Positions 15,836 to 24,375 of a stretch of DNA of 64,000 nucleotides are shown piece after piece. A model generated the notes under the pieces. That model saw only the letters and a list, made by a program, of their open reading frames with translations. It did not search any database and was not told where the DNA came from. Within the stretch, counting starts at the first letter, position 1, and every line of letters starts with the position of its first letter. Source of the DNA: an uncultured Bacteroidales bacterium. GTDB taxonomy: Bacteria > Bacteroidota > Bacteroidia > Bacteroidales > Paludibacteraceae. The stretch is from the NCBI GenBank assembly GCA_902778935.1, contig CACYZT010000003.1, positions 62,001-126,000 on the forward strand, given 5' to 3'. The position numbers and the translations under genes are program-made.

Positions 15836-16306
15836 TTATTCTATCTCATCGGGTTCCGGTTCGTCACAAAGGTGATTATGGAGGAGAAGTTCCATTTGCT
15901 TATTGCACTCACCCTCTTGGTGACTGTGAACGAGCGGAATATTGACACTTACTATTTCATAGGCGAGCCAAGAGAGGTCAAGGGAAGTCCCCTTTCCGTC
16001 TATGGTTTTCCCCGTTTCATCGGAGACAACCTCATCTTCGGAGAAGATCTCTTGCTCGTCGTCTATTTCAAGGGGCATCGGGTCGAGACACCTATCACAC
16101 ACAACAAAGACAGTTCCATGAACCGCAATGCTGAGCTGATAGTCCTCCTCCCGGAGATTAAGCGTCACTGTGGCAGAAACATTTCCATGGAGAATTTCGG
16201 TCTTCTCAAGAGAAGCGAAAAATTCGTCATCTAACTGAATACCAAACGAATGCGAGCCAATCGGCAGTCGTTGTAAATCGATGATAATATGTTTCTGCTC
16301 GCTCAT
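15836..16306 (-). CDS. YceD/DUF177 family protein
   Basis: The 156-residue acidic protein contains the family core CDRCLDPMPLEIDDEQEIFSE and an early LRREDYQ-like strand (LREEDYQL). DUF177 proteins lie next to rpmF across bacteria and are linked to 23S rRNA accumulation. The start at 16306 (MSEQKHII) is preferred because the in-frame ATG at 16354 falls inside the promoter and could not be transcribed. The leader would then be only about 10 nt. A segment of this gene (15991-16034) has a decayed copy at 23257-23299. Confidence 0.88.
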   Translation of the reverse strand: MSEQKHIIIDLQRLPIGSHSFGIQLDDEFFASLEKTEILHGNVSATVTLNLREEDYQLSIAVHGTVFVVCDRCLDPMPLEIDDEQEIFSEDEVVSDETGKTIDGKGTSLDLSWLAYEIVSVNIPLVHSHQEGECNKQMELLLHNHLCDEPEPDEIE

Positions 16307-16323
16307 AGGCGCAAAATCGAGTG

Positions 16324-16354
16324 CAAAGGTACTGCTTTTTTTTGAATTATGCAA
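16324..16354 (-). promoter_or_regulatory. Promoter of the yceD-rpmF operon
   Basis: TACCTTTG (16324-16331) and TTG (16352-16354), 20 nt apart, on the minus strand. A perfect 14-bp palindrome, GTGAGAATTCTCAC (16372-16385), lies just upstream of the -33 box and could be a regulator site. Confidence 0.85.
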
Positions 16355-16698
16355 ATTTTTTTTGCTTTTTTGTGAGAATTCTCACATTTCTCACATTTCT
16401 CATGTCCTGAGAACGTTCTTAGAAAGTTCATACAAAAGCCATTTTCAAGGCAAAAAAAACATATTTTTTAAGCCACATCACCACATCTCGTATATTCCTG
16501 TATATCAGCCTATTACAAGTGTGATTAAAAACATAAAGTCTAGGACACTCTAACGCAGCCTCACTTCCGCCTCTTACTTCCCCCCTTACTTAGTACCGAG
16601 AATGGTTATAAAATCGTTAATCAATAGTTAATGAATTACTAAAGATTTGAGAATAGACAAGAGAAAAAGAGAATTGGTGAATCAAGAAAAAATGCACC

Positions 16699-16746
16699 GG
16701 CGATAGTGGCGATATTGGCGATATCGCCAGTTTCGCCACTATCGCC
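16699..16746. repeat. 48-nt imperfect palindrome built from GGCGATA units
   Basis: The arms GGCGATAGTGGCGA and TCGCCACTATCGCC are perfect complements. The centre GGCGATATCGCC is itself a palindrome, and only the two 4-nt connectors between arms and centre fail to pair fully. It may fold as a cruciform or serve as a protein site. No T-run follows, so a terminator role is doubtful. Confidence 0.7.
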
Positions 16747-16873
16747 ATGCAAAAAATTATGTAATAGAATAATACAACAGGCTGTATAAGTGAAGCATGT
16801 ACCCAAAATGCTTGAATTTTAGGCAAAATTGGTACATGCTAAAGAACGAAGAGAAGAGAGAAGAGAAAAGAAA

Positions 16874-16902
16874 AACCGTCACGTTTTATGGACGTGACGG
16901 TT
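16874..16902 (-). terminator. Rho-independent terminator for the 17223-19539 operon
   Basis: AACCGTCACGT and ACGTGACGGTT form an 11-bp perfect stem around a 7-nt loop. On the minus strand it is followed by a T-rich run (TTTTTTCTTTTC), the expected layout for transcripts coming from the right. Confidence 0.75.
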
Positions 16903-16905
16903 GAG

Positions 16906-16994
16906 ACGGGATAAAATCCCTGAAAAGAAACGAAGTCAAAGACGGGATAGTATCCCTGAAAATAAACATAATCAAAGGCCGGATGATATCCGGC
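16906..16994. repeat. Tandem 36-bp repeats, each with a short palindrome
   Basis: Units start at 16906, 16942 and 16978. The first two are full 36-mers with the palindromes GGGATAAAATCCC and GGGATAGTATCCC, followed by CTGAAAA and TCAAAG blocks. The third is degenerate but carries a longer palindrome, GCCGGATGATATCCGGC. Palindrome arms are conserved by compensatory change, hinting at selection for structure. There are too few units, and no cas genes, for a CRISPR call. Confidence 0.6.
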
Positions 16995-17008
16995 ACAAAG
17001 GACGAAAT

Positions 17009-17101
17009 TTATTTTACCTCTTGGCCTTGCAAGGTATAAACCTTCTCCTCGCGGAGGATAAATAGCAAAAGAGAAGGACAGAAAGAAAACTGCCGGCTCA
17101 T
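17009..17101 (-). pseudogene. Orphan C-terminal tail of a secreted protein (gene remnant)
   Basis: The minus strand encodes LFILREEKVYTLQGQEVK followed by a stop at 17009-17011. This closely matches the tail of the pectate lyase-like protein in this window (LFIQRGEKVYTIQG at its C-terminus) and is a common ending of secreted Bacteroidales proteins. Upstream the frame opens only 30 codons back (ATG at 17101) and the sequence no longer resembles such a protein. It is best read as the last piece of a deleted gene. A 30-residue functional peptide cannot be excluded. Confidence 0.6.
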
Positions 17102-17222
17102 CACGAGTCAGCAGTCATATGAAATTACTTAATATATACCTTTGATATTGCAATTTCGTGCTTGATGCCGATTGTCGCAGACGGGATTCTAGTTGACTTC
17201 TATGTCCATCAAGCAAATCATA

Positions 17223-17939
17223 TTAGAATAATTTTATTCTTTCTTGTTTGGAGTTGATAAAGAAGAACTCTCCATCCTTCTTTGCGGAAATGAGGTCGAG
17301 GCCTTCGTTGTATGCAGGATGGAGATACTCATATTCAAACGGGATAAGAGTGTTGCCTTCTATGTCAACGATACCGGCATTACCATCTTTGCGGGCTATT
17401 AAATAGTTACTGCGCCACCATAACCATTCAAATCTCCCGAACGGAATAACCCAATTGCCTTTTAGGTCGATTACTCCGTATTGCTTGTCTCTTTCTACAA
17501 TGAATAAATCATCCCCTCCAGTTGAAACCCAATCGAACTGAGCTGGGATGATGATATTGCCTTCTAAGTCTTTCACTCCCCATTTCTTCGGACCTTCTGC
17601 ATAGGCAAGGAACTTGTCGGTCAATTTACGCATTGACCGCACATGAGACTCATGATCTTTCGGACGTTCACTCATCTGAGGTTCGTCAATATACTTTTGC
17701 TGAGCGACATCGAAATAAACAAATCCCTTGACTCCACGTTTCATACTTAAAAATACTGAGTCGTGGTCGCGTAGTTCAAGAGGTGGAAGCAAAAGATTGT
17801 CATACCACACTACTTCGCCTTTTCGGTTGATTAAGCCGTGGTAAATGCCGTCTGTACCTTTTGTTTTGATGTTGGCATATTCACCGTCAAAGCCCATAAT
17901 GGTTTTTAGACCGGGTAATTCACGTACGTTCATAATCAT
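17223..17939 (-). CDS. WG-repeat protein
   Basis: The 238-residue soluble protein has at least three WG-type repeats in its second half: KWGVKDLEGNIIIPAQFDWV, QYGVIDLKGNWVIPFGRFEW and NAGIVDIEGNTLIPFEYEYL. A weaker one sits near the N-terminus (GLINRKGEVVW). WG repeats form beta-rich scaffolds and are found in many effector, stress and unknown proteins; no catalytic motif is seen. It is the last gene of a four-gene operon (7-nt gap after the previous gene) that shares its promoter/operator design with the WYL operon upstream, followed by a terminator at 16874-16902. Start at 17939 (MIMNV) or 17933 is equally possible. Confidence 0.8.
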   Translation of the reverse strand: MIMNVRELPGLKTIMGFDGEYANIKTKGTDGIYHGLINRKGEVVWYDNLLLPPLELRDHDSVFLSMKRGVKGFVYFDVAQQKYIDEPQMSERPKDHESHVRSMRKLTDKFLAYAEGPKKWGVKDLEGNIIIPAQFDWVSTGGDDLFIVERDKQYGVIDLKGNWVIPFGRFEWLWWRSNYLIARKDGNAGIVDIEGNTLIPFEYEYLHPAYNEGLDLISAKKDGEFFFINSKQERIKLF

Positions 17940-17946
17940 TGTTGAT

Positions 17947-18546
17947 TTATATCACTTTGTACAAGAAAGTATCATTATTAGTAATAAAAAAATCCCAGTT
18001 GAACTCACGGACATAGATAAAATCTGTCAGCGCAAAATTCATGTCCTCAAACAACTCGTGGAAGGCCATTGTTAAGTGCAAATCTTTAGTGAGTTCAGGG
18101 TCAAAATGTTCATTCCAATTAGGGCAGACATCCATCCCCAAAAATTCCTCAAAAGTTTCATAACATCCTTGATTAAAATGAACTTTTGAAGCTCCCGAGC
18201 CATTATATAATGGATTACCCTCATTGCAAAGGGCTTCCCATAACTCTTCCCGATGATCCGCTTGGTATGGATGCCATTTCGGATAGTCATAACAGAGATA
18301 GCATTTTGCTTCTAAATCAATGTTAGGTTGTATAGCGGACACTTGCCGATACAAACTAATGGCTTTGTCGTACATCACTTTCAAAGCATCGCGGAAAGCG
18401 TCATTGAAAGCGATTATGTCCGGGAGCAATTCTTTCTGATGCAACATAGCCTGTTCGTTAAGCATTTCCTTACGCACCTTACACAGGCATTGCACTTGAG
18501 AGTAAGCCTTCCGATGGTAACTATACAAGATTTCCCGCTCAATCAT
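17947..18546 (-). CDS. Unrecognised soluble protein of the island
   Basis: I take the start at 18546 (MIEREILYSYHRKAY), overlapping the upstream gene by 8 nt; an in-frame ATG at 18576 would overlap by 38. The 199-residue product is alpha-helical at its N-terminus (residues ~1-65, with several Lys/Glu/Gln). The middle contains AKCYLCYDYPKWHP and the C-terminus is acidic and aromatic-rich. There is no signal peptide, membrane segment or motif I recognise. The context points to a role with the neighbouring WG-repeat protein and under WYL control. Confidence 0.75.
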   Translation of the reverse strand: MIEREILYSYHRKAYSQVQCLCKVRKEMLNEQAMLHQKELLPDIIAFNDAFRDALKVMYDKAISLYRQVSAIQPNIDLEAKCYLCYDYPKWHPYQADHREELWEALCNEGNPLYNGSGASKVHFNQGCYETFEEFLGMDVCPNWNEHFDPELTKDLHLTMAFHELFEDMNFALTDFIYVREFNWDFFITNNDTFLYKVI

Positions 18547-19111
18547 TTGAAGATTGTGATTGTTGTAATAGATCATATACTTTGTTGTTTATCTCTTTAA
18601 TAGCCTGCACATAATAGTCTGAAGGGCTGGTGCAAATCTTGTAGTACTCATCATCGCTAATAATATGCTTATTACGCGCCTCTAGCAGTTCATAATAATT
18701 CCAATGCGGCATTGAGCCAAAAGGAAGACATATCATCACCTCTTTGCAGAACAAATCAACCAGATCTGCAATATACAAGTTCCTCATTAGGTCAGCACTA
18801 TCGAAGGATCTTTCAGAGAGACCAACACCCGTCCTCAAAAACTTTATATATCTTCTGAAGGCGGCATAAATGGGCTCTAAATATCCGGGTTCAGGTGTCT
18901 TGTTAGCGATATATTCCATGACATGCTTTTTCAGATCAAAGCCACGCTCAACGGCATAACGCAAGTCCGACACCTTAACGTATGTCTCAAGCCGGTCTTC
19001 AAAATCGGTTTCCCATATGCCTAGTTCAAAATAGAACTTGTCACTTGGTCGGGTAAAGTAAGTACTTCCTTCTGGAAGATACTTGTCAACAGCAACACAA
19101 AATGGTTCCAT
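18539..19111 (-). CDS. Unrecognised soluble protein of the island
   Basis: The 190-residue, mostly helical protein begins MEPFCVAVDKYLPEG and has no signal peptide or membrane helix. Aromatic residues are frequent (for example PHWNYYELLEARNKH and SPSDYYVQAIKEINN). I recognise no family. It begins 5 nt after the stop of the preceding gene and overlaps the next one, so it is co-translated. A conserved partner function with the other island proteins is inferred only from this coupling. Confidence 0.75.
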   Translation of the reverse strand: MEPFCVAVDKYLPEGSTYFTRPSDKFYFELGIWETDFEDRLETYVKVSDLRYAVERGFDLKKHVMEYIANKTPEPGYLEPIYAAFRRYIKFLRTGVGLSERSFDSADLMRNLYIADLVDLFCKEVMICLPFGSMPHWNYYELLEARNKHIISDDEYYKICTSPSDYYVQAIKEINNKVYDLLQQSQSSND

Positions 19112-19116
19112 AGCTA

Positions 19117-19539
19117 TTATAACAAACCAGCCTCTTTAAGTTTTGATTTTTCTTCATCGGTTAAAGGTCGCCTGCCTTCTAACTCTCCATTCATGTCAAA
19201 CTGGAGCAAGTCATTACCGATATGAGTAACAAAATTGTCCTCCCATACCGATATAACATCCCCAACTTCTTCGTGGGTTTTCTCTGCGGTCTTTTGTCCT
19301 GCCTCGTTAAAGAACAAATACTTGTCTCCATAAAGAACTACAAAGAAATGCTCGCACACATATGTTTTTGTTGGAACTTTCTTTGATACGAACCCATCCT
19401 CGATATTTATACGAAGATGAGTCTTTTGAGTTGACACTTGTACATCAGCATAAACCAAGTAGCACTTTTGTCTTTGGGGAGAACTTGGCATGTATATTCT
19501 AATCTCAGAGAATACAACTTTTGCTTTCTTGATAGCCAT
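19117..19539 (-). CDS. First gene of the second island operon, small beta-rich protein
   Basis: The 140-residue product (MAIKKAKVVFSEIRIYMPSS...) is rich in short strands. It contains two degenerate repeats resembling WG/propeller blades: GDKYLFFNEAGQKTAEK and NDLLQFDMNGELEGRRPLT. It could be related to the WG-repeat protein at the end of the same operon, but the similarity is weak. Its promoter at 19593-19632 is nearly identical to that of the WYL regulator gene. The leader of about 55 nt has no obvious structure. Confidence 0.75.
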   Translation of the reverse strand: MAIKKAKVVFSEIRIYMPSSPQRQKCYLVYADVQVSTQKTHLRINIEDGFVSKKVPTKTYVCEHFFVVLYGDKYLFFNEAGQKTAEKTHEEVGDVISVWEDNFVTHIGNDLLQFDMNGELEGRRPLTDEEKSKLKEAGLL

Positions 19540-19592
19540 AATTTGTGTTTTTTAATTATTAAACAATACAGCGCGACTCGATTTTCGAATCA

Positions 19593-19632
19593 CGCTGCAA
19601 AATTACTACTTTATACTTTCATAAAATGAAAG
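19593..19632 (-). promoter_or_regulatory. Promoter with WYL-type operator, second island operon
   Basis: On the minus strand TAATTTTG (19598-19605) is the -7 box. The inverted repeat CTTTCA-N5-TGAAAG (19616-19632) begins 10 nt upstream and occupies the -33 region, where no TTG is found at the usual distance. The 40-nt block matches 23075-23114 at 35 positions, including identical spacing of operator and -7 box. A regulator bound here would block or replace -33 contacts. Confidence 0.8.
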
Positions 19633-19651
19633 AAAGCAGAAAAAGTGAAAA

Positions 19652-20167
19652 TTATTTTATTTTGTCATGGCAAAAGTCCTTTTTACCGCACTTTTTGCAA
19701 TGAGTTCCCTCCCATATCGAATCGAAGTGGCTCATTGCTGAATCAATAAATCCCGGTTCATCGGTCAACATGCCGGCTTCGAAATTTCGGTTGGCTGTTG
19801 ACTTCATGCCCATACCTGCGCCAGTCATGTTCGCAGAACCAATATAAACAAGGTTGCTATCCATGACAATTATCTTCATGTGAACGCGCGGACATAAGCG
19901 TCGTTCCATGCCTCCCCAAAGGGCGGGATATTTGTCAAAGTCTTCACGGAAAGCCGTGCCCGGTTCTTTGGCATGAATCAGACGGACCTCTACGCCTTTC
20001 TTCACAAGGTCATTGAGAATTTGAAGAAGTGGGACAACAGTGCTATCTTTCTTCTCTACGTAGAGATCCTTCAAGTCAGCAGTGGCAATCCAAAGGAGCC
20101 GCTTCACTTTAGGAAACTGTGCGATAACCTTGGAATAATGTTCGGTATCTGCGATGTACAGGGTCAT
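19652..20167 (-). CDS. Phospholipase D-like (HKD) nuclease family protein
   Basis: The 171-residue protein has a single HKD-type motif: H96-M-K98 in RVHMKIIVMD, then GSANMTGAG and E130 in NRNFEAG. One-motif PLD proteins such as Nuc and BfiI act as dimers and cut DNA or phosphodiesters. Residues 156-167 (HCKKCGKKDFCH) form a Cys/His cluster that could bind zinc. It overlaps the DnaQ-like gene by four bases (ATGA) and is the last gene of the WYL operon. The next promoter lies only ~20 nt further on. A nuclease is likely; the substrate is unknown. Confidence 0.85.
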   Translation of the reverse strand: MTLYIADTEHYSKVIAQFPKVKRLLWIATADLKDLYVEKKDSTVVPLLQILNDLVKKGVEVRLIHAKEPGTAFREDFDKYPALWGGMERRLCPRVHMKIIVMDSNLVYIGSANMTGAGMGMKSTANRNFEAGMLTDEPGFIDSAMSHFDSIWEGTHCKKCGKKDFCHDKIK

Positions 20168-20679
20168 AATATCTGTTGTGCTATTACTGCGCAGGCTTCT
20201 GCATCAGCAAGCGCATGGTGATGGTTCTGGAGGTCATATCCACAATAACCGGCTATGATATTTAAATTATGATGTCCTTCCGGCCATAGTTGGCGCGACT
20301 TAAGCAACGTACATTCAAACTCATAGTCCGGATAAACAATGTCATAAGCCGCGAATACAGCCTTTAGACAGGTTTCGTCAAAGGCTTTATTATGCGCTAC
20401 GAAGGGAACTTCGCCATCCTCTATATATGGGAAATATTCATGTATCTTACGCTGTGCTTCAACCCATACATCAGGGAAATCTGGAGCGTCATTAGTGTCC
20501 AAGCAGCATAGTCCGTTCACAAAGCTACATTTCTCGTTATAGTAATTAGGAATCGGATGAATGAGCGAGTAGTAATTATCCACTATCTCGCCATTTTTAA
20601 CAATGACAATACCAACCGAACAAACACTTGACTGCTCGAAGTTGGCTGTCTCAAAATCTATAGCTACGAAATTTTGCAT
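20164..20679 (-). CDS. DnaQ-like 3'-5' exonuclease
   Basis: The 171-residue single-domain protein shows the DEDDh pattern: D8 and E10 in AIDFET, D101 in HNKAFDETCL, and H154 with D159 near the end (HHHALADAEA). This is the exonuclease fold of the DNA polymerase III epsilon subunit and RNase T; such stand-alone copies trim DNA or RNA 3' ends. It overlaps the PD-(D/E)XK gene by 16 nt and the PLD gene by 4 nt, so three nuclease-like proteins are made from one transcript. All catalytic residues appear intact. A housekeeping role cannot be excluded, but the setting favours defence or damage response. Confidence 0.9.
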   Translation of the reverse strand: MQNFVAIDFETANFEQSSVCSVGIVIVKNGEIVDNYYSLIHPIPNYYNEKCSFVNGLCCLDTNDAPDFPDVWVEAQRKIHEYFPYIEDGEVPFVAHNKAFDETCLKAVFAAYDIVYPDYEFECTLLKSRQLWPEGHHNLNIIAGYCGYDLQNHHHALADAEACAVIAQQIL

Positions 20680-21857
20680 ACGACATCTAGGATTTCTTTA
20701 AGAATTGAGTATAACCCGTCATAGTCATCCAACCCAAAACTCCAATACAACGGATTATCATTGTTATCTTTGTACCACACTCCTCGCACTCCTCCTAATT
20801 CAGAAACGAGATTCGGGGAATCACAATCAACACTACAAATCAGTTCTCCGGGAGCATCTGATTTCCAATTGTGCATAATTTGGATGGAACGTACTCCATT
20901 TTGGCATATATCCGCGGTACTTGTCCAATACCCATCAAGTTTGCCTTCTTGGGAAATGTCATCTTTTGCAACAGAAGGGAAATGATGATGTATCAATTCG
21001 AAGAATCTGTCTCTTTGATAAATCTTTATAAGAGAGGAAATTTTCTCGGAGCACTTCGGATACTTTTCAACCTCAATTTTTTTGAGAACTCCTACTTTGT
21101 CTGCAATACTCGTTTTTCCATTAGCATTTAGCACCCCTTCAACTTCTTTTTGAAATTTCTCATCCACCGCCGTTTGATGACATATAATATCTATCTCATT
21201 AATGGACTGCTCGATAATACTTCTAAGAGGATTCGATTCGTCGCATTCTGCCTTACATTCCTGTAACCAGTTCTTAATATCATCAATATAAGATATGCAA
21301 AAGAAGTCTTCGTCCATTCGCAATTTTCCCTCTTTGCCTATCGTTTTATCATCTCCTTTTATCGATTTTTCATCTGGATTGCTTTTAAGAAGGGTTAAAT
21401 AAAAGATACGCGAGTCATCAAACTTTTCTTTTCCTGTATTTGCATATCTATAATAACGATATAGTTGTTTTTTTTGATCGTCTGCATCGATTTTGTTTTC
21501 GATAATTATTGCCTTATTGACACCGGGGTCGTGAACTATGATATCTATTCGACCACCCTTTTCATATTTTTCGTCAATATGACCTATTACTCTTTCGACA
21601 ATATTTTCTTGTGCTGCTTTAACATAATCCTCTGGCAAATGCACATGTTTCAAGAACAAACGTAAAAATATATCTCCGAAGCCATGATTTCCTTGCGGAT
21701 TAAGTAAATAAGCAATCCAAGCCGACCATGCCAGTTCACTACGCTGGATACGAAATGCTTCAAAGACATTAAAAGAGTCTGGTGCATTATTATCTTCTTG
21801 ATAAGTCAATTCTAATTTTCTAAATAACTCATCAAGTTCATTCATTATCTTCTCCAT
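20664..21857 (-). CDS. PD-(D/E)XK nuclease superfamily protein
   Basis: The 397-residue protein carries a PD-(D/E)XK core with D105 in GGRIDIIV and E120-N-K122 in AIIIENKI, followed by QLYRYYRY, where Q131 fits the auxiliary Gln. An upstream SAWIAYLLNP segment and the overall layout resemble the PDDEXK_4 group, often met in defence islands. The C-terminal ~200 residues (from about 200) show no known domain and may recognise a target or partner. Start at 21857 or at the second Met (21845). It follows the small helical gene by 5 nt. This is probably the largest effector of the WYL operon. Confidence 0.85.
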   Translation of the reverse strand: MEKIMNELDELFRKLELTYQEDNNAPDSFNVFEAFRIQRSELAWSAWIAYLLNPQGNHGFGDIFLRLFLKHVHLPEDYVKAAQENIVERVIGHIDEKYEKGGRIDIIVHDPGVNKAIIIENKIDADDQKKQLYRYYRYANTGKEKFDDSRIFYLTLLKSNPDEKSIKGDDKTIGKEGKLRMDEDFFCISYIDDIKNWLQECKAECDESNPLRSIIEQSINEIDIICHQTAVDEKFQKEVEGVLNANGKTSIADKVGVLKKIEVEKYPKCSEKISSLIKIYQRDRFFELIHHHFPSVAKDDISQEGKLDGYWTSTADICQNGVRSIQIMHNWKSDAPGELICSVDCDSPNLVSELGGVRGVWYKDNNDNPLYWSFGLDDYDGLYSILKEILDVVCKIS

Positions 21858-21862
21858 ATTAC

Positions 21863-22144
21863 TTAATTATTTACAGGGTTAAACATATCCAACTGACGGC
21901 TTGCGTGCCATTCTTCGACACGTTCCTGTCTTTCATTTTCGTGCGCTTCACACCAACGGGCATAGAATTGGTTATAAAACCAATAACCTTTGCGAAGGTC
22001 GGTATCTATCTTATCCAAGGCGCGACGAACCGACAGCAAGTCCTTGCTAAATGAGCGTAGCTCTTTTTCGGTCGGGTCGCTCGTCTGGTAGCTTTTCATT
22101 CGTTGCAAAATATCCGCAACTTTGTTTTCAATTGTTGCTTCCAT
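21863..22144 (-). CDS. Small helical protein between the WYL regulator and the nuclease
   Basis: I take the start at 22144 (MEATIENKVADILQ), whose ATG overlaps the TGA of the WYL gene by one base (TGATG), the classic layout for coupled translation. The 93-residue product is charged and almost entirely helical, with a likely coiled coil over residues ~25-60, and ends in DMFNPVNN. There is no known domain. It could be an adaptor or inhibitor of the following nuclease; that is inference from position only. Confidence 0.75.
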   Translation of the reverse strand: MEATIENKVADILQRMKSYQTSDPTEKELRSFSKDLLSVRRALDKIDTDLRKGYWFYNQFYARWCEAHENERQERVEEWHASRQLDMFNPVNN

Positions 22145-23055
22145 CAGTCTTGATATTTTGAAAGTTGATACTCTAGATCTTTGCGGAACTCGTCCCGCAA
22201 CCATTGAGGTTTTAAGACCTCTAAAACCTTGCCATGCTTGCGTAATTCCTGCTTGAACTCAAACGCCGGTACAAGGTTATATCTGAAGATAGAGAATTGC
22301 TCTTGGCGTTCAATCTCCGTTTGTGAAGGGTGCAAGGGCAATGAGCGCAAAAAATTAGCTTGGTATGCCTCTATCTTTATTTCAACCTCTTGCAGCTCAT
22401 CTTCCATGCCGCTCACTCCATACACATTGCGGAAATAGAATTCGGCATCAAAATCCTTCGGCAGCTGATATTTCTGCGTGGTAGGCTCCAGAGCGTGAAT
22501 ACGGTCGAGCGAATAAATGAGCGTCTTATCTCTCCCGACGGAATGCGCCAACATATACCAGCGCTGTTTGAACATCTTCAGGCAATAAGGCTCTACCATA
22601 AACGTGGACGGCTCTGTTTTAGCGTAGCCTTGGTAAGTCATTTCCAAGACGCAGCTATCGCGCATAGCTTCTACAACCGTCGTGAGGAACTTCTCGCCGG
22701 AAGGAACATGTTCATACAAAATGCGATGACGCAGTTCCTTACTATCTTTGATAAGCGAGTTCATTGCAAAGAGTTGGAACATGCGATTACGCCAATCGTC
22801 GCTATGCAAGTTGTTTCCATCCTCAATGTAGTACTCGCCGCGCGTATTGCATTGGATAGTGACGTCGAAAAGCAGTTCCACATTATTGCGCCAGCGGTGG
22901 AAGGTACATTCCGGAATAGAATCCGTTTTGTAATCATTCACGGACGCACGCGCCCATTTATCATCTATAGCGGCGCGGGTGATTGGTCCGCGTGCGATAG
23001 TGTTTACAAGCCATATGTAACACTCAAAAAGATACGAAGTTGATGATTTGTTCAT
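22144..23055 (-). CDS. WYL-domain transcriptional regulator
   Basis: The 303-residue protein has an N-terminal winged-helix region (about 1-85) and a WYL domain around residues 125-205 (TYQGYAKTEPSTFMVEPYCLKMFKQRWYMLAHS, then IYSLDRIHAL in two blocks). A C-terminal WCX-like extension ends LEYQLSKYQD. WYL regulators include PafBC and the defence repressors BrxR and CapW, which bind inverted repeats and respond to nucleic-acid or nucleotide signals. The start at 23055 fits the promoter at 23075-23114; the longer frame would begin inside the -7 box. The 17-bp inverted repeat in its own promoter suggests autoregulation. Confidence 0.9.
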   Translation of the reverse strand: MNKSSTSYLFECYIWLVNTIARGPITRAAIDDKWARASVNDYKTDSIPECTFHRWRNNVELLFDVTIQCNTRGEYYIEDGNNLHSDDWRNRMFQLFAMNSLIKDSKELRHRILYEHVPSGEKFLTTVVEAMRDSCVLEMTYQGYAKTEPSTFMVEPYCLKMFKQRWYMLAHSVGRDKTLIYSLDRIHALEPTTQKYQLPKDFDAEFYFRNVYGVSGMEDELQEVEIKIEAYQANFLRSLPLHPSQTEIERQEQFSIFRYNLVPAFEFKQELRKHGKVLEVLKPQWLRDEFRKDLEYQLSKYQD

Positions 23056-23074
23056 AATGCGAATTTTCGTTTGA

Positions 23075-23114
23075 CGCTGCAAAAGTACTACATTATTCTT
23101 TCACAAGATGAAAG
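23075..23114 (-). promoter_or_regulatory. Promoter with WYL-type operator, regulator/nuclease operon
   Basis: TACTTTTG (23080-23087) is the -7 box on the minus strand. CTTTCA-N5-TGAAAG (23098-23114) starts 10 nt upstream over the -33 region. Apart from five substitutions the 40-nt block equals the promoter at 19593-19632, and the first transcribed bases (GCAGCGT) are also identical. The four half-sites are unchanged while the 5-nt centre differs, as expected for a dimer-binding site. Confidence 0.8.
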
Positions 23115-23256
23115 TCGCCACAAAATTACACAAAAAAAATGACATACACAAATTTGTACGTCATTTCTTTTGTATTTTTAGTATATTTAGGCTTATTACG
23201 CTTCTTTTGGCGCTCCCTTGCGCCATGTATGTCTATGTATTATTTATTTTGCCCTT

Positions 23257-23299
23257 TTTCCGTCTATGTTTTCCCCGATTAGCGGGGACAACCTCATGC
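23257..23299. repeat. Decayed copy of an internal yceD segment
   Basis: Blocks of 12 (TTTCCGTCTATG), 9 (TTTTCCCCG) and 11 (GACAACCTCAT) bases match 15991-16034 inside yceD in the same order and orientation. The blocks are separated by small gaps and substitutions, and here the frame is broken. The copy also contains TCCCCG-N5-CGGGGA (23272-23288), a small hairpin that might act as the pheS terminator. Confidence 0.55.
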
Positions 23300-23334
23300 T
23301 GCAGAGTTCAGCGTGCCCAAACGGAGTTATGGTT

Positions 23335-24375
23335 TTAGCAGCTCTCGAATTGCTTAAGGAAGCGGACGTCGTTTTCGGAGAAGAGACGAAGGTCCTTGAC
23401 GCGGTATTTGAGGTTCGTGATACGCTCTACACCCATTCCGAAGGCATAACCGCTATATTCCTTACTGTCAATGCCGCAGGCCTCCAGCACATTCGGATCC
23501 ACCATGCCGCATCCGAGGATTTCCACCCATCCTGTTCCTTTGCAGAACGAGCAACCGGTTCCGCCGCAGATATTACAACTGATATCCATCTCGGCACTCG
23601 GTTCCGTGAACGGGAAATAAGACGGACGCAGACGAATCTTCGTATCCGCGCCGAACATCTCCTTACTGAAATAAAGCAACGCTTCGCGCAAGTCAGCAAA
23701 GCTGACATTCTTGTCGATATAAAGACCTTCCACCTGATGGAAGAAACAATGCGCACGGGCAGAAATAGCCTCATTGCGGTACACACGTCCCGGGCAAAGG
23801 ACGCGAATAGGCGGTTTCTGGCTCGTCATGACGCGCGTCTGGACAGAAGAGGTGTGCGAACGAAGCAACACATCCGTCGGTTTCTGCACGCCTATCTCTT
23901 TTTCTATAAAGAACGTGTCCTGCATGTCGCGCGCAGGATGCTCGGGCGCAAAATTCAACATGCCATACACATGCTTGTCATCCTCCACTTCCGGTCCTTG
24001 CGCGATAGTAAAACCAATACGGGAGAAGATGTCCTCTATCTCCTCGCGCACAAGCGACAAAGGATGACGCGTACCCAATTCAATCGGATCAGGCGTGCGC
24101 GTCAAGTCCAAACGGTCTGTCTCTGCCTTTTTCTCCTCAAACTGCTCACGCAAGCAATTAATCCGTCCTTCCGTCTCCTGGCGTAACTGATTCAACAACT
24201 GTCCTAACTCCCTTTTCTGATCGTTCGGCACATCGCGAAACTCATTGAAAAGCGCGGTAATCTCACCTTTCTTACTAAGATATTTGATACGCAGCGCCTC
24301 GAGCTCCTCCGCATTAGCAGCTTGCAAGCCGGGCACCTGTTTCAGCAATTCTTGAATATGTTCTTTTAATGCCAT
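23335..24375 (-). CDS. pheS: Phenylalanine-tRNA ligase alpha subunit
   Basis: The 346-residue protein has the N-terminal coiled-coil tRNA-binding arm (residues ~1-90) and the class II catalytic core. Landmarks are HPLSLV, the motif 2 region CPGRVYRNEAISARAHCFFHQVEG, RPSYFPFTEPSAEM and the motif 3 region GYAFGMGVERI. A Cys-rich insertion (CNICGGTGCSFC) near residue 275 is usual in Bacteroidetes PheS and may bind zinc. It attaches phenylalanine to tRNA together with PheT, which is not in this window. It is transcribed alone from the promoter at 24402-24432, divergent from the MBL hydrolase gene. Confidence 0.97.
   Translation of the reverse strand: MALKEHIQELLKQVPGLQAANAEELEALRIKYLSKKGEITALFNEFRDVPNDQKRELGQLLNQLRQETEGRINCLREQFEEKKAETDRLDLTRTPDPIELGTRHPLSLVREEIEDIFSRIGFTIAQGPEVEDDKHVYGMLNFAPEHPARDMQDTFFIEKEIGVQKPTDVLLRSHTSSVQTRVMTSQKPPIRVLCPGRVYRNEAISARAHCFFHQVEGLYIDKNVSFADLREALLYFSKEMFGADTKIRLRPSYFPFTEPSAEMDISCNICGGTGCSFCKGTGWVEILGCGMVDPNVLEACGIDSKEYSGYAFGMGVERITNLKYRVKDLRLFSENDVRFLKQFESC

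Follow-up and report, generated by a model that had tools for sequence, protein, structure and literature searches.

Among described systems, the closest in regulation are those controlled by CapW and BrxR, WYL regulators reported to bind palindromes in defence promoters and to repress them (PMC9122588, PMC9122601). For BrxR a second operator set, R-BOX2, is described, and the survey in the same article reports 338 of 347 homologues in Proteobacteria, with no word starting with 'bacteroid' in its main text (PMC9122601). A described relative of a different kind is Brig1, reported as an antiviral glycosylase of the UDG superfamily that excises alpha-glucosyl-hmC (hmC, hydroxymethylcytosine; PMC11078745). 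The locus analysed here is an island of nine minus-strand genes and about 7 kb within a stretch of 64,000 nucleotides (nt) of contig CACYZT010000003.1, referred to as the window, from an uncultured gut bacterium of the order Bacteroidales (Paludibacteraceae). It comprises a WYL regulator, three nucleases and a second gene block. The conserved unit is the regulator with its operator, a chassis on which the cargo is exchangeable and mostly DNA-attacking.

The first block is formed by five genes, described in the initial annotation as joined by overlaps or gaps of 5 nt or less, and the open reading frames agree, with successive gaps of -1, +5, -16 and -4 nt from the WYL to the PLD gene. P0001 (22144-23055) is a WYL-WCX transcriptional regulator of 303 amino acids (aa), with Pfam matches to WYL (4e-15) and WCX (1.9e-7) and with W166 and Y167 invariant in 42/42 homologues; residues 1-120, where an N-terminal winged helix-turn-helix was looked for by Pfam, gave no match. 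P0002 (21863-22144) is a helical protein of 93 aa with no Pfam match above the cut-off and a paralogue in the host genome 84% identical to it. The three nuclease folds originally proposed beside the regulator were all recovered by Pfam: P0003 (20664-21857) matches PDDEXK_4 (1.7e-33, residues 29-215); P0004 (20164-20679), a DnaQ-like DEDDh exonuclease, matches Rv2179c-like (2.1e-13) and RNase_T (9.9e-11); and P0005 (19652-20167), a PLD-type nuclease with a single HKD motif and cysteines at its C-terminus, matches PLDc_2 (1.8e-14). The key residues, presumed catalytic from the known features of these folds, are present as had been claimed and conserved in the three alignments: D105, E120 and K122 of P0003 in 9/9 PDDEXK sequences; D8 and E10 of P0004 in 22/24 rows (the other two being gapped there) and D101, H154 and D159 in 24/24; and H96, K98, D103, S111 and N113 of P0005 in 25/25.

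The real unit is larger than these five genes, as a second block of four (17223-19539) starts 112 nt past the PLD gene and the same palindromic operator-promoter heads each block. The palindrome, CTTTCAT-N3-TGAAAG, is located at 23098-23114 ahead of the WYL gene, just upstream of TAnnTTTG, presumably the -7 element of Bacteroidetes promoters. A near-identical copy lies at 19616-19632 ahead of the second block (both on the minus strand), followed at 19567-19599, also on the minus strand, by the conserved hairpin with which the predicted second transcript opens at its 5' end. The block comprises P0006 (19117-19539, 140 aa), P0007 (18539-19111, 190 aa) and P0008 (17947-18576, 209 aa), all lacking Pfam matches, and the WG-repeat protein P0009 (17223-17939). 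P0007 shows 61-77% identity over nine relatives, and a search for its relatives on plasmids gave no match; P0008 has a relative in the WYL locus of a Prevotella plasmid. A mutual relationship between P0007 and P0008 was rejected on comparison. Neither these two proteins nor the PDDEXK profile gave anything convincing against PDB sequences.

The operator was searched as a composite pattern, palindrome plus -7 element, with Markov-simulated sequence or the reversed pattern as controls. WYL loci and window together (482,676 bases) gave 38 matches, versus 0 in 1.8 Mb of simulated sequence. The host genome (2.18 Mb) has five sites, all at three WYL loci of the P0001 family: two in the window island, two in another on contig C13 and one before a third WYL gene (contig C19); the reversed pattern gave 0. 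Genus-wide, 54 sites were identified in 33/178 genomes (control 0), and were placed relative to 150 listed WYL places out of a larger number. By this measure 28 sites precede a WYL start by no more than 400 nt, 15 follow a same-strand WYL gene within 5.5 kb, four lie 0.4-2.6 kb before a WYL gene and seven have no listed WYL gene nearby. It is highly probable that the WYL protein binds these palindromes.

The exchange of cargo is seen within the host itself. The island on C13 (L030) has a WYL protein 93%, a P0002 relative 84% and P0006-P0009 relatives 66-78% identical to those of the window, and between the relatives of P0002 and P0006 it carries unrelated cargo of 290 and 221 aa. This second copy of regulator, P0002 and second block bears out the view that the grouping is more than chance. 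Flanking the C13 island (L030 5029-5916 and 12155-13985) are a DinD/BRO-like gene and apparent restriction-modification genes, both tentatively assigned by eye.

Layouts were compared in 24 of the 25 best-ranked WYL places, window included and one near-duplicate contig omitted, with Pfam run on cargo representatives and the other members assigned to classes by clustering. The commonest class is c5, relatives of the 290-aa protein, in 14 loci; PDDEXK_4 was identified in three (window, L049, L145), a GmrSD relative in three (L146, L147, L152) and none of the three classes in four (L134b, L149, L150, L151). DnaQ occurs in seven and PLD in four. The representatives matched GmrSD_N (3e-33 and 1e-17) and PDDEXK_4 (2.1e-15). 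The proposal that the nuclease trio is itself the module did not survive, since WYL, PDDEXK_4, DnaQ and PLD stand together in 1/23 other closest loci (L145): a fixed trio is rejected, with the WYL chassis carrying other enzymes in most loci and DnaQ and PLD found also with no WYL gene nearby. Gene order, proposed as a check of conservation, is variable among the closest WYL loci, and a constant housekeeping setting, the case named as refuting, was not seen in the homologous loci examined, which are variable.

The first member of c5 (L030 7264-8133, with 14 relatives), the commonest cargo of the closest WYL genes, has no Pfam match above the cut-off. Its predicted model, with a predicted local distance difference test (pLDDT) of 82.5, matched nothing but UDG-superfamily structures among the 50 PDB rows listed (best E 6.7e-4, TM-score up to 0.49 on the target), and against the Pfam UDG profile 3/15 members match, at best E 0.001. 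Two further clusters, c10 and c11, were rejected as UDG-fold families, their profile comparison with c5 being negative (probability 0.2 and 6.2), and c21 is not claimed as one, the comparison being suggestive only (65.7) with no PDB sequence match. Also recurrent in WYL loci is cluster c12 (L146 10961-12028, L149 3538-4512 and relatives), with proteins of 325-357 aa, no Pfam or PADLOC match and twice a position directly after a P0002 relative. Locus L134 (G350 contig C5, 59145-71009) contains three WYL genes of the family in a stretch of 12 kb; DnaQ, UDG-fold, c12 and c10 cargo is placed between and after them.

The position of DnaQ bears on the simplest alternative, a chance neighbourhood in which mobile nuclease genes drifted beside a common WYL gene and share no function. 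DnaQ was identified within 6 kb downstream in 28/150 listed WYL places, in 18 of them within 150 nt. Counted from the other side, with fragments and weak longer-frame rows dropped and two pieces of one G301 gene merged, 28/74 near-full-length DnaQ genes have a listed same-strand WYL gene upstream within 6 kb and 1/74 has one on the downstream side. That DnaQ and PLD are widespread alone would suit a chance neighbourhood: six DnaQ loci (L126-L131) have other neighbours and no WYL setting, and of 17 PLD loci taken from elsewhere in the order, two (L034, L035) have a WYL gene in the fetched stretch. This explanation is nevertheless very improbable, given the overlapping reading frames, the shared operators and the directional bias of 28 versus 1. 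In many genomes DnaQ is represented only by N- or C-terminal pieces of 20-45 residues, which may have been left by cargo exchange or may reflect the ends of contigs.

Beyond the genus, the order in L035, from another genus, is WYL, DnaQ, two GmrSD relatives, PLD and a P0006-like gene. A plasmid of Prevotella sp. E2-28 carries WYL, a 3'-5' exonuclease and two successive DUF262 genes, with the P0008 relative further along, and on a plasmid of Segatella hominis the WYL gene adjoins a PD-(D/E)XK gene of the opposite strand, with PLD and exonuclease genes within 10 kb. Two human-gut scaffolds labelled as unverified 'Bacteriophage sp.' (MT837679 and MT837932; L248, L249) have a WYL gene followed by DnaQ and may be bacterial DNA. 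The nearest named contigs are metagenome assemblies of Bacteroidales and Paludibacteraceae, several of them ruminant-derived.

The hairpin is a further element of the chassis. At many regulon promoters other than those of WYL genes, the predicted transcript starts with a hairpin of the form CAGCGTGA..TCRCGCTG, with a fold energy of -14 to -20.5 kcal/mol in most and of -11.3 in L139, whose hairpin extends beyond the 45-nt segment used for folding. Sites at WYL starts lack it, two of them (L195, L200) carrying a different strong stem. Among the retrieved sites with no listed WYL gene nearby it is present in L116, L188, L189, L190, L192 and L193 and absent in L191. Genus-wide the pattern has 69 copies in 46/178 genomes (control 0); the host has three, all in its two islands. 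Measured with 79 of the 150 listed WYL places, 58/69 hairpins lie 72-7170 nt downstream of a same-strand WYL gene, and none lies near an opposite-strand one. The Prevotella and Segatella loci, L034 and L035 gave no copy of the hairpin. Covariation is weak: one pair changes on both sides in two sequences, a result equalled in 29/500 shuffles, and by number of pairs 244/500 shuffles were equal or better. A role as DNA operator is disfavoured because the loop differs in length between copies and 10/11 retain a G.U pair; as a guess, the hairpin could be a message stabiliser or a control element. An Rfam scan of 16300-23400 gave no match, and past the last gene of the island a terminator-like stem was located at 16874-16902 (minus strand) by consensus scan only.

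The siting of the island bears on a second alternative, a WYL-controlled DNA-damage cassette whose glycosylase, exonuclease and nucleases process the damaged DNA of the bacterium itself. The island is flanked by pheS and a DUF177 gene. In 6/29 relative loci (L160, L161, L164, L172, L173, L174) no more than about 300 nt separate pheS from the DUF177 gene after it, the island being absent there; the other 23 gave no DUF177 match in the flank examined, which is short in some. As for integration at a tRNA gene, the only one in the window is tRNA-Ser at 2870-2959, distant from the island. WYL matches range from 0 to 9 per genome over the 178 genomes of the genus. A damage cassette would agree with PafBC and DriD, described as WYL proteins that answer DNA damage, and with the UDG, DnaQ and PLD folds, which serve repair too. 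However, cargo is swapped between near-identical chassis, GmrSD is a restriction family, the pheS site is empty in six relatives and copy number is variable, and defence therefore fits better than housekeeping repair. The damage cassette is regarded as unlikely.

The island is slightly more plausibly than otherwise a WYL-repressed, self-contained anti-phage restriction locus, in which one chassis carries exchangeable cargo; that it is anti-phage in some way is somewhat more probable, and that its target is modified DNA is possible but doubtful. A WYL dimer would sit on the palindrome overlapping both island promoters and repress its own gene, the nucleases and the second block. By comparison with other WYL proteins, infection or DNA damage could yield a ligand, for example single-stranded DNA, that releases the regulator. 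P0003, with its C-terminal domain picking the target, would then cut the invading DNA, and P0004 and P0005 would degrade or process the DNA ends. In relatives, UDG-fold glycosylases or GmrSD enzymes stand on the chassis where the window has the PDDEXK nuclease.

The second block bears on a third alternative, an abortive-infection or toxin-type locus in which a derepressed nuclease hits host nucleic acid and P0006-P0009 provide immunity or control. By analogy with the logic of CapW (PMC9122588), tight WYL repression would suit a dangerous effector, and the block is equipped with an operator and a leader hairpin of its own; Pfam and PADLOC scans, on the other hand, matched none of its proteins to a known antitoxin or immunity family. 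This alternative appears rather unlikely, if less so than a damage cassette.

For a restriction locus, the question is how P0003 would select its target. Its nuclease domain is present, as in type IV restriction, and its candidate for the recognition of modified bases is a weak MotA-like fold match. The predicted model (pLDDT 76.5) has chains of T4 MotA in its top eight PDB rows (E 0.016-0.072, probability 0.87-1.00), with a TM-score on the target of 0.46-0.61 for the isolated domain and 0.34 for 6k4y. Against a viral library the model hits a phage PD-(D/E)XK protein first (E 1.1e-8), with proteins named MotA at ranks 8, 17 and 38 (E 0.029-0.21). The C-terminal half of P0003 would weakly resemble the double wing of MotA, which reportedly recognises base-modified DNA. 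GmrSD enzymes act on modified DNA. What GmrSD, Brig1 and the MotA double wing have in common is that they act on base-modified phage DNA or tolerate it, and on this basis the cargo may represent alternative attacks on modified phage genomes.

Several observations weigh against the restriction reading. The anti-phage function is predicted from the genes, and P0006-P0009 match no known function, only the WG repeat of P0009 being recognised. DnaQ, PLD and PDDEXK_4 are also found in other settings. The host has six WYL matches of the P0001 family, three of them lacking this exact operator, and a WYL match occurs in 133/178 genomes against 33 with the strict operator pattern. The model of P0003 has no PDB match at E <= 0.001, all eight top rows are one protein, and the MotA-like match, for which Foldseek gave no aligned range, is assigned to the C-terminal half by its size and by the position of the Pfam nuclease (residues 29-215). 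In a contrast of cargo (48 of 61 proteins scanned) and flanks (48 of 93 scanned), PADLOC defence models were not enriched in cargo, the flanks matching as often.

If true, the restriction reading would point to an undescribed, rechargeable anti-virus defence: the switch stays common to all copies, of which a genome has several under one operator, and the weapon behind it changes. Operator and leader hairpin would be a computable marker for unknown defence genes in gut Bacteroidales, the sensing ligand of defence WYL regulators would become testable in a new phylum, and bacteria would have, in a nuclease with a MotA-like domain, a new means of reading phage base modification. A more speculative extension, given less credence than a modified target itself, is an immune platform of Bacteroidales: one chassis of regulator, operator and leader hairpin, reloaded with enzymes against base-modified phage DNA (UDG-fold, GmrSD or, in the window, MotA-winged PD-(D/E)XK), whose copies, sharing an operator, would fire together as a repertoire.

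Compared with known systems, the island matched no named multi-gene system when its nine proteins were scanned with PADLOC-DB, and the literature searched, which was not a full-text survey, held no description of the gene set or chassis. The initial annotation's statement that no named system is known stands in that sense, and is qualified by P0003, which already matches the profile of PDC-S26, a single-gene phage defence candidate (E 1.9e-64, residues 13-251 on profile positions 11-239 of 389). The match is mainly on the N-terminal part of the profile, and P0003 differs in being one gene of a regulated island; a further candidate match among the nine proteins is PDC-S48 (4.5e-19). Core genes of BREX (PglZ and others) or CBASS (CD-NTase) are not among the PADLOC matches. 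DISARM DrmC is the model nearest to P0005 among single-HKD proteins, but the score is 41.2 bits against a cut-off of 133, and no other Drm match was identified beyond weak DrmC hits of P0003 and P0005. The likeness of P0003 to T4 MotA is structural and weak, with no sequence match, and in P0003 the fold is part of a nuclease rather than a phage activator. Brig1 and c5 share the UDG-superfamily fold; unlike Brig1, c5 would be under WYL control, and it lies outside the window. GmrSD relatives, as alternative cargo of the same chassis, link the island to type IV restriction of the GmrSD/BrxU kind, whereas the predicted nuclease of the window is PDDEXK_4. By analogy, regulation of the island would work like that of defence controlled by BrxR and CapW, P0001 being a putative member of that family: it has WYL and WCX, a palindrome over its own promoter and, as in the published account of BrxR, a second operator inside the locus. 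The island differs in belonging to Bacteroidales, in the palindrome lying upstream of the -7 element, in having no BREX or CBASS core gene and in that its regulators form one near-identical clade with several unrelated cargoes.

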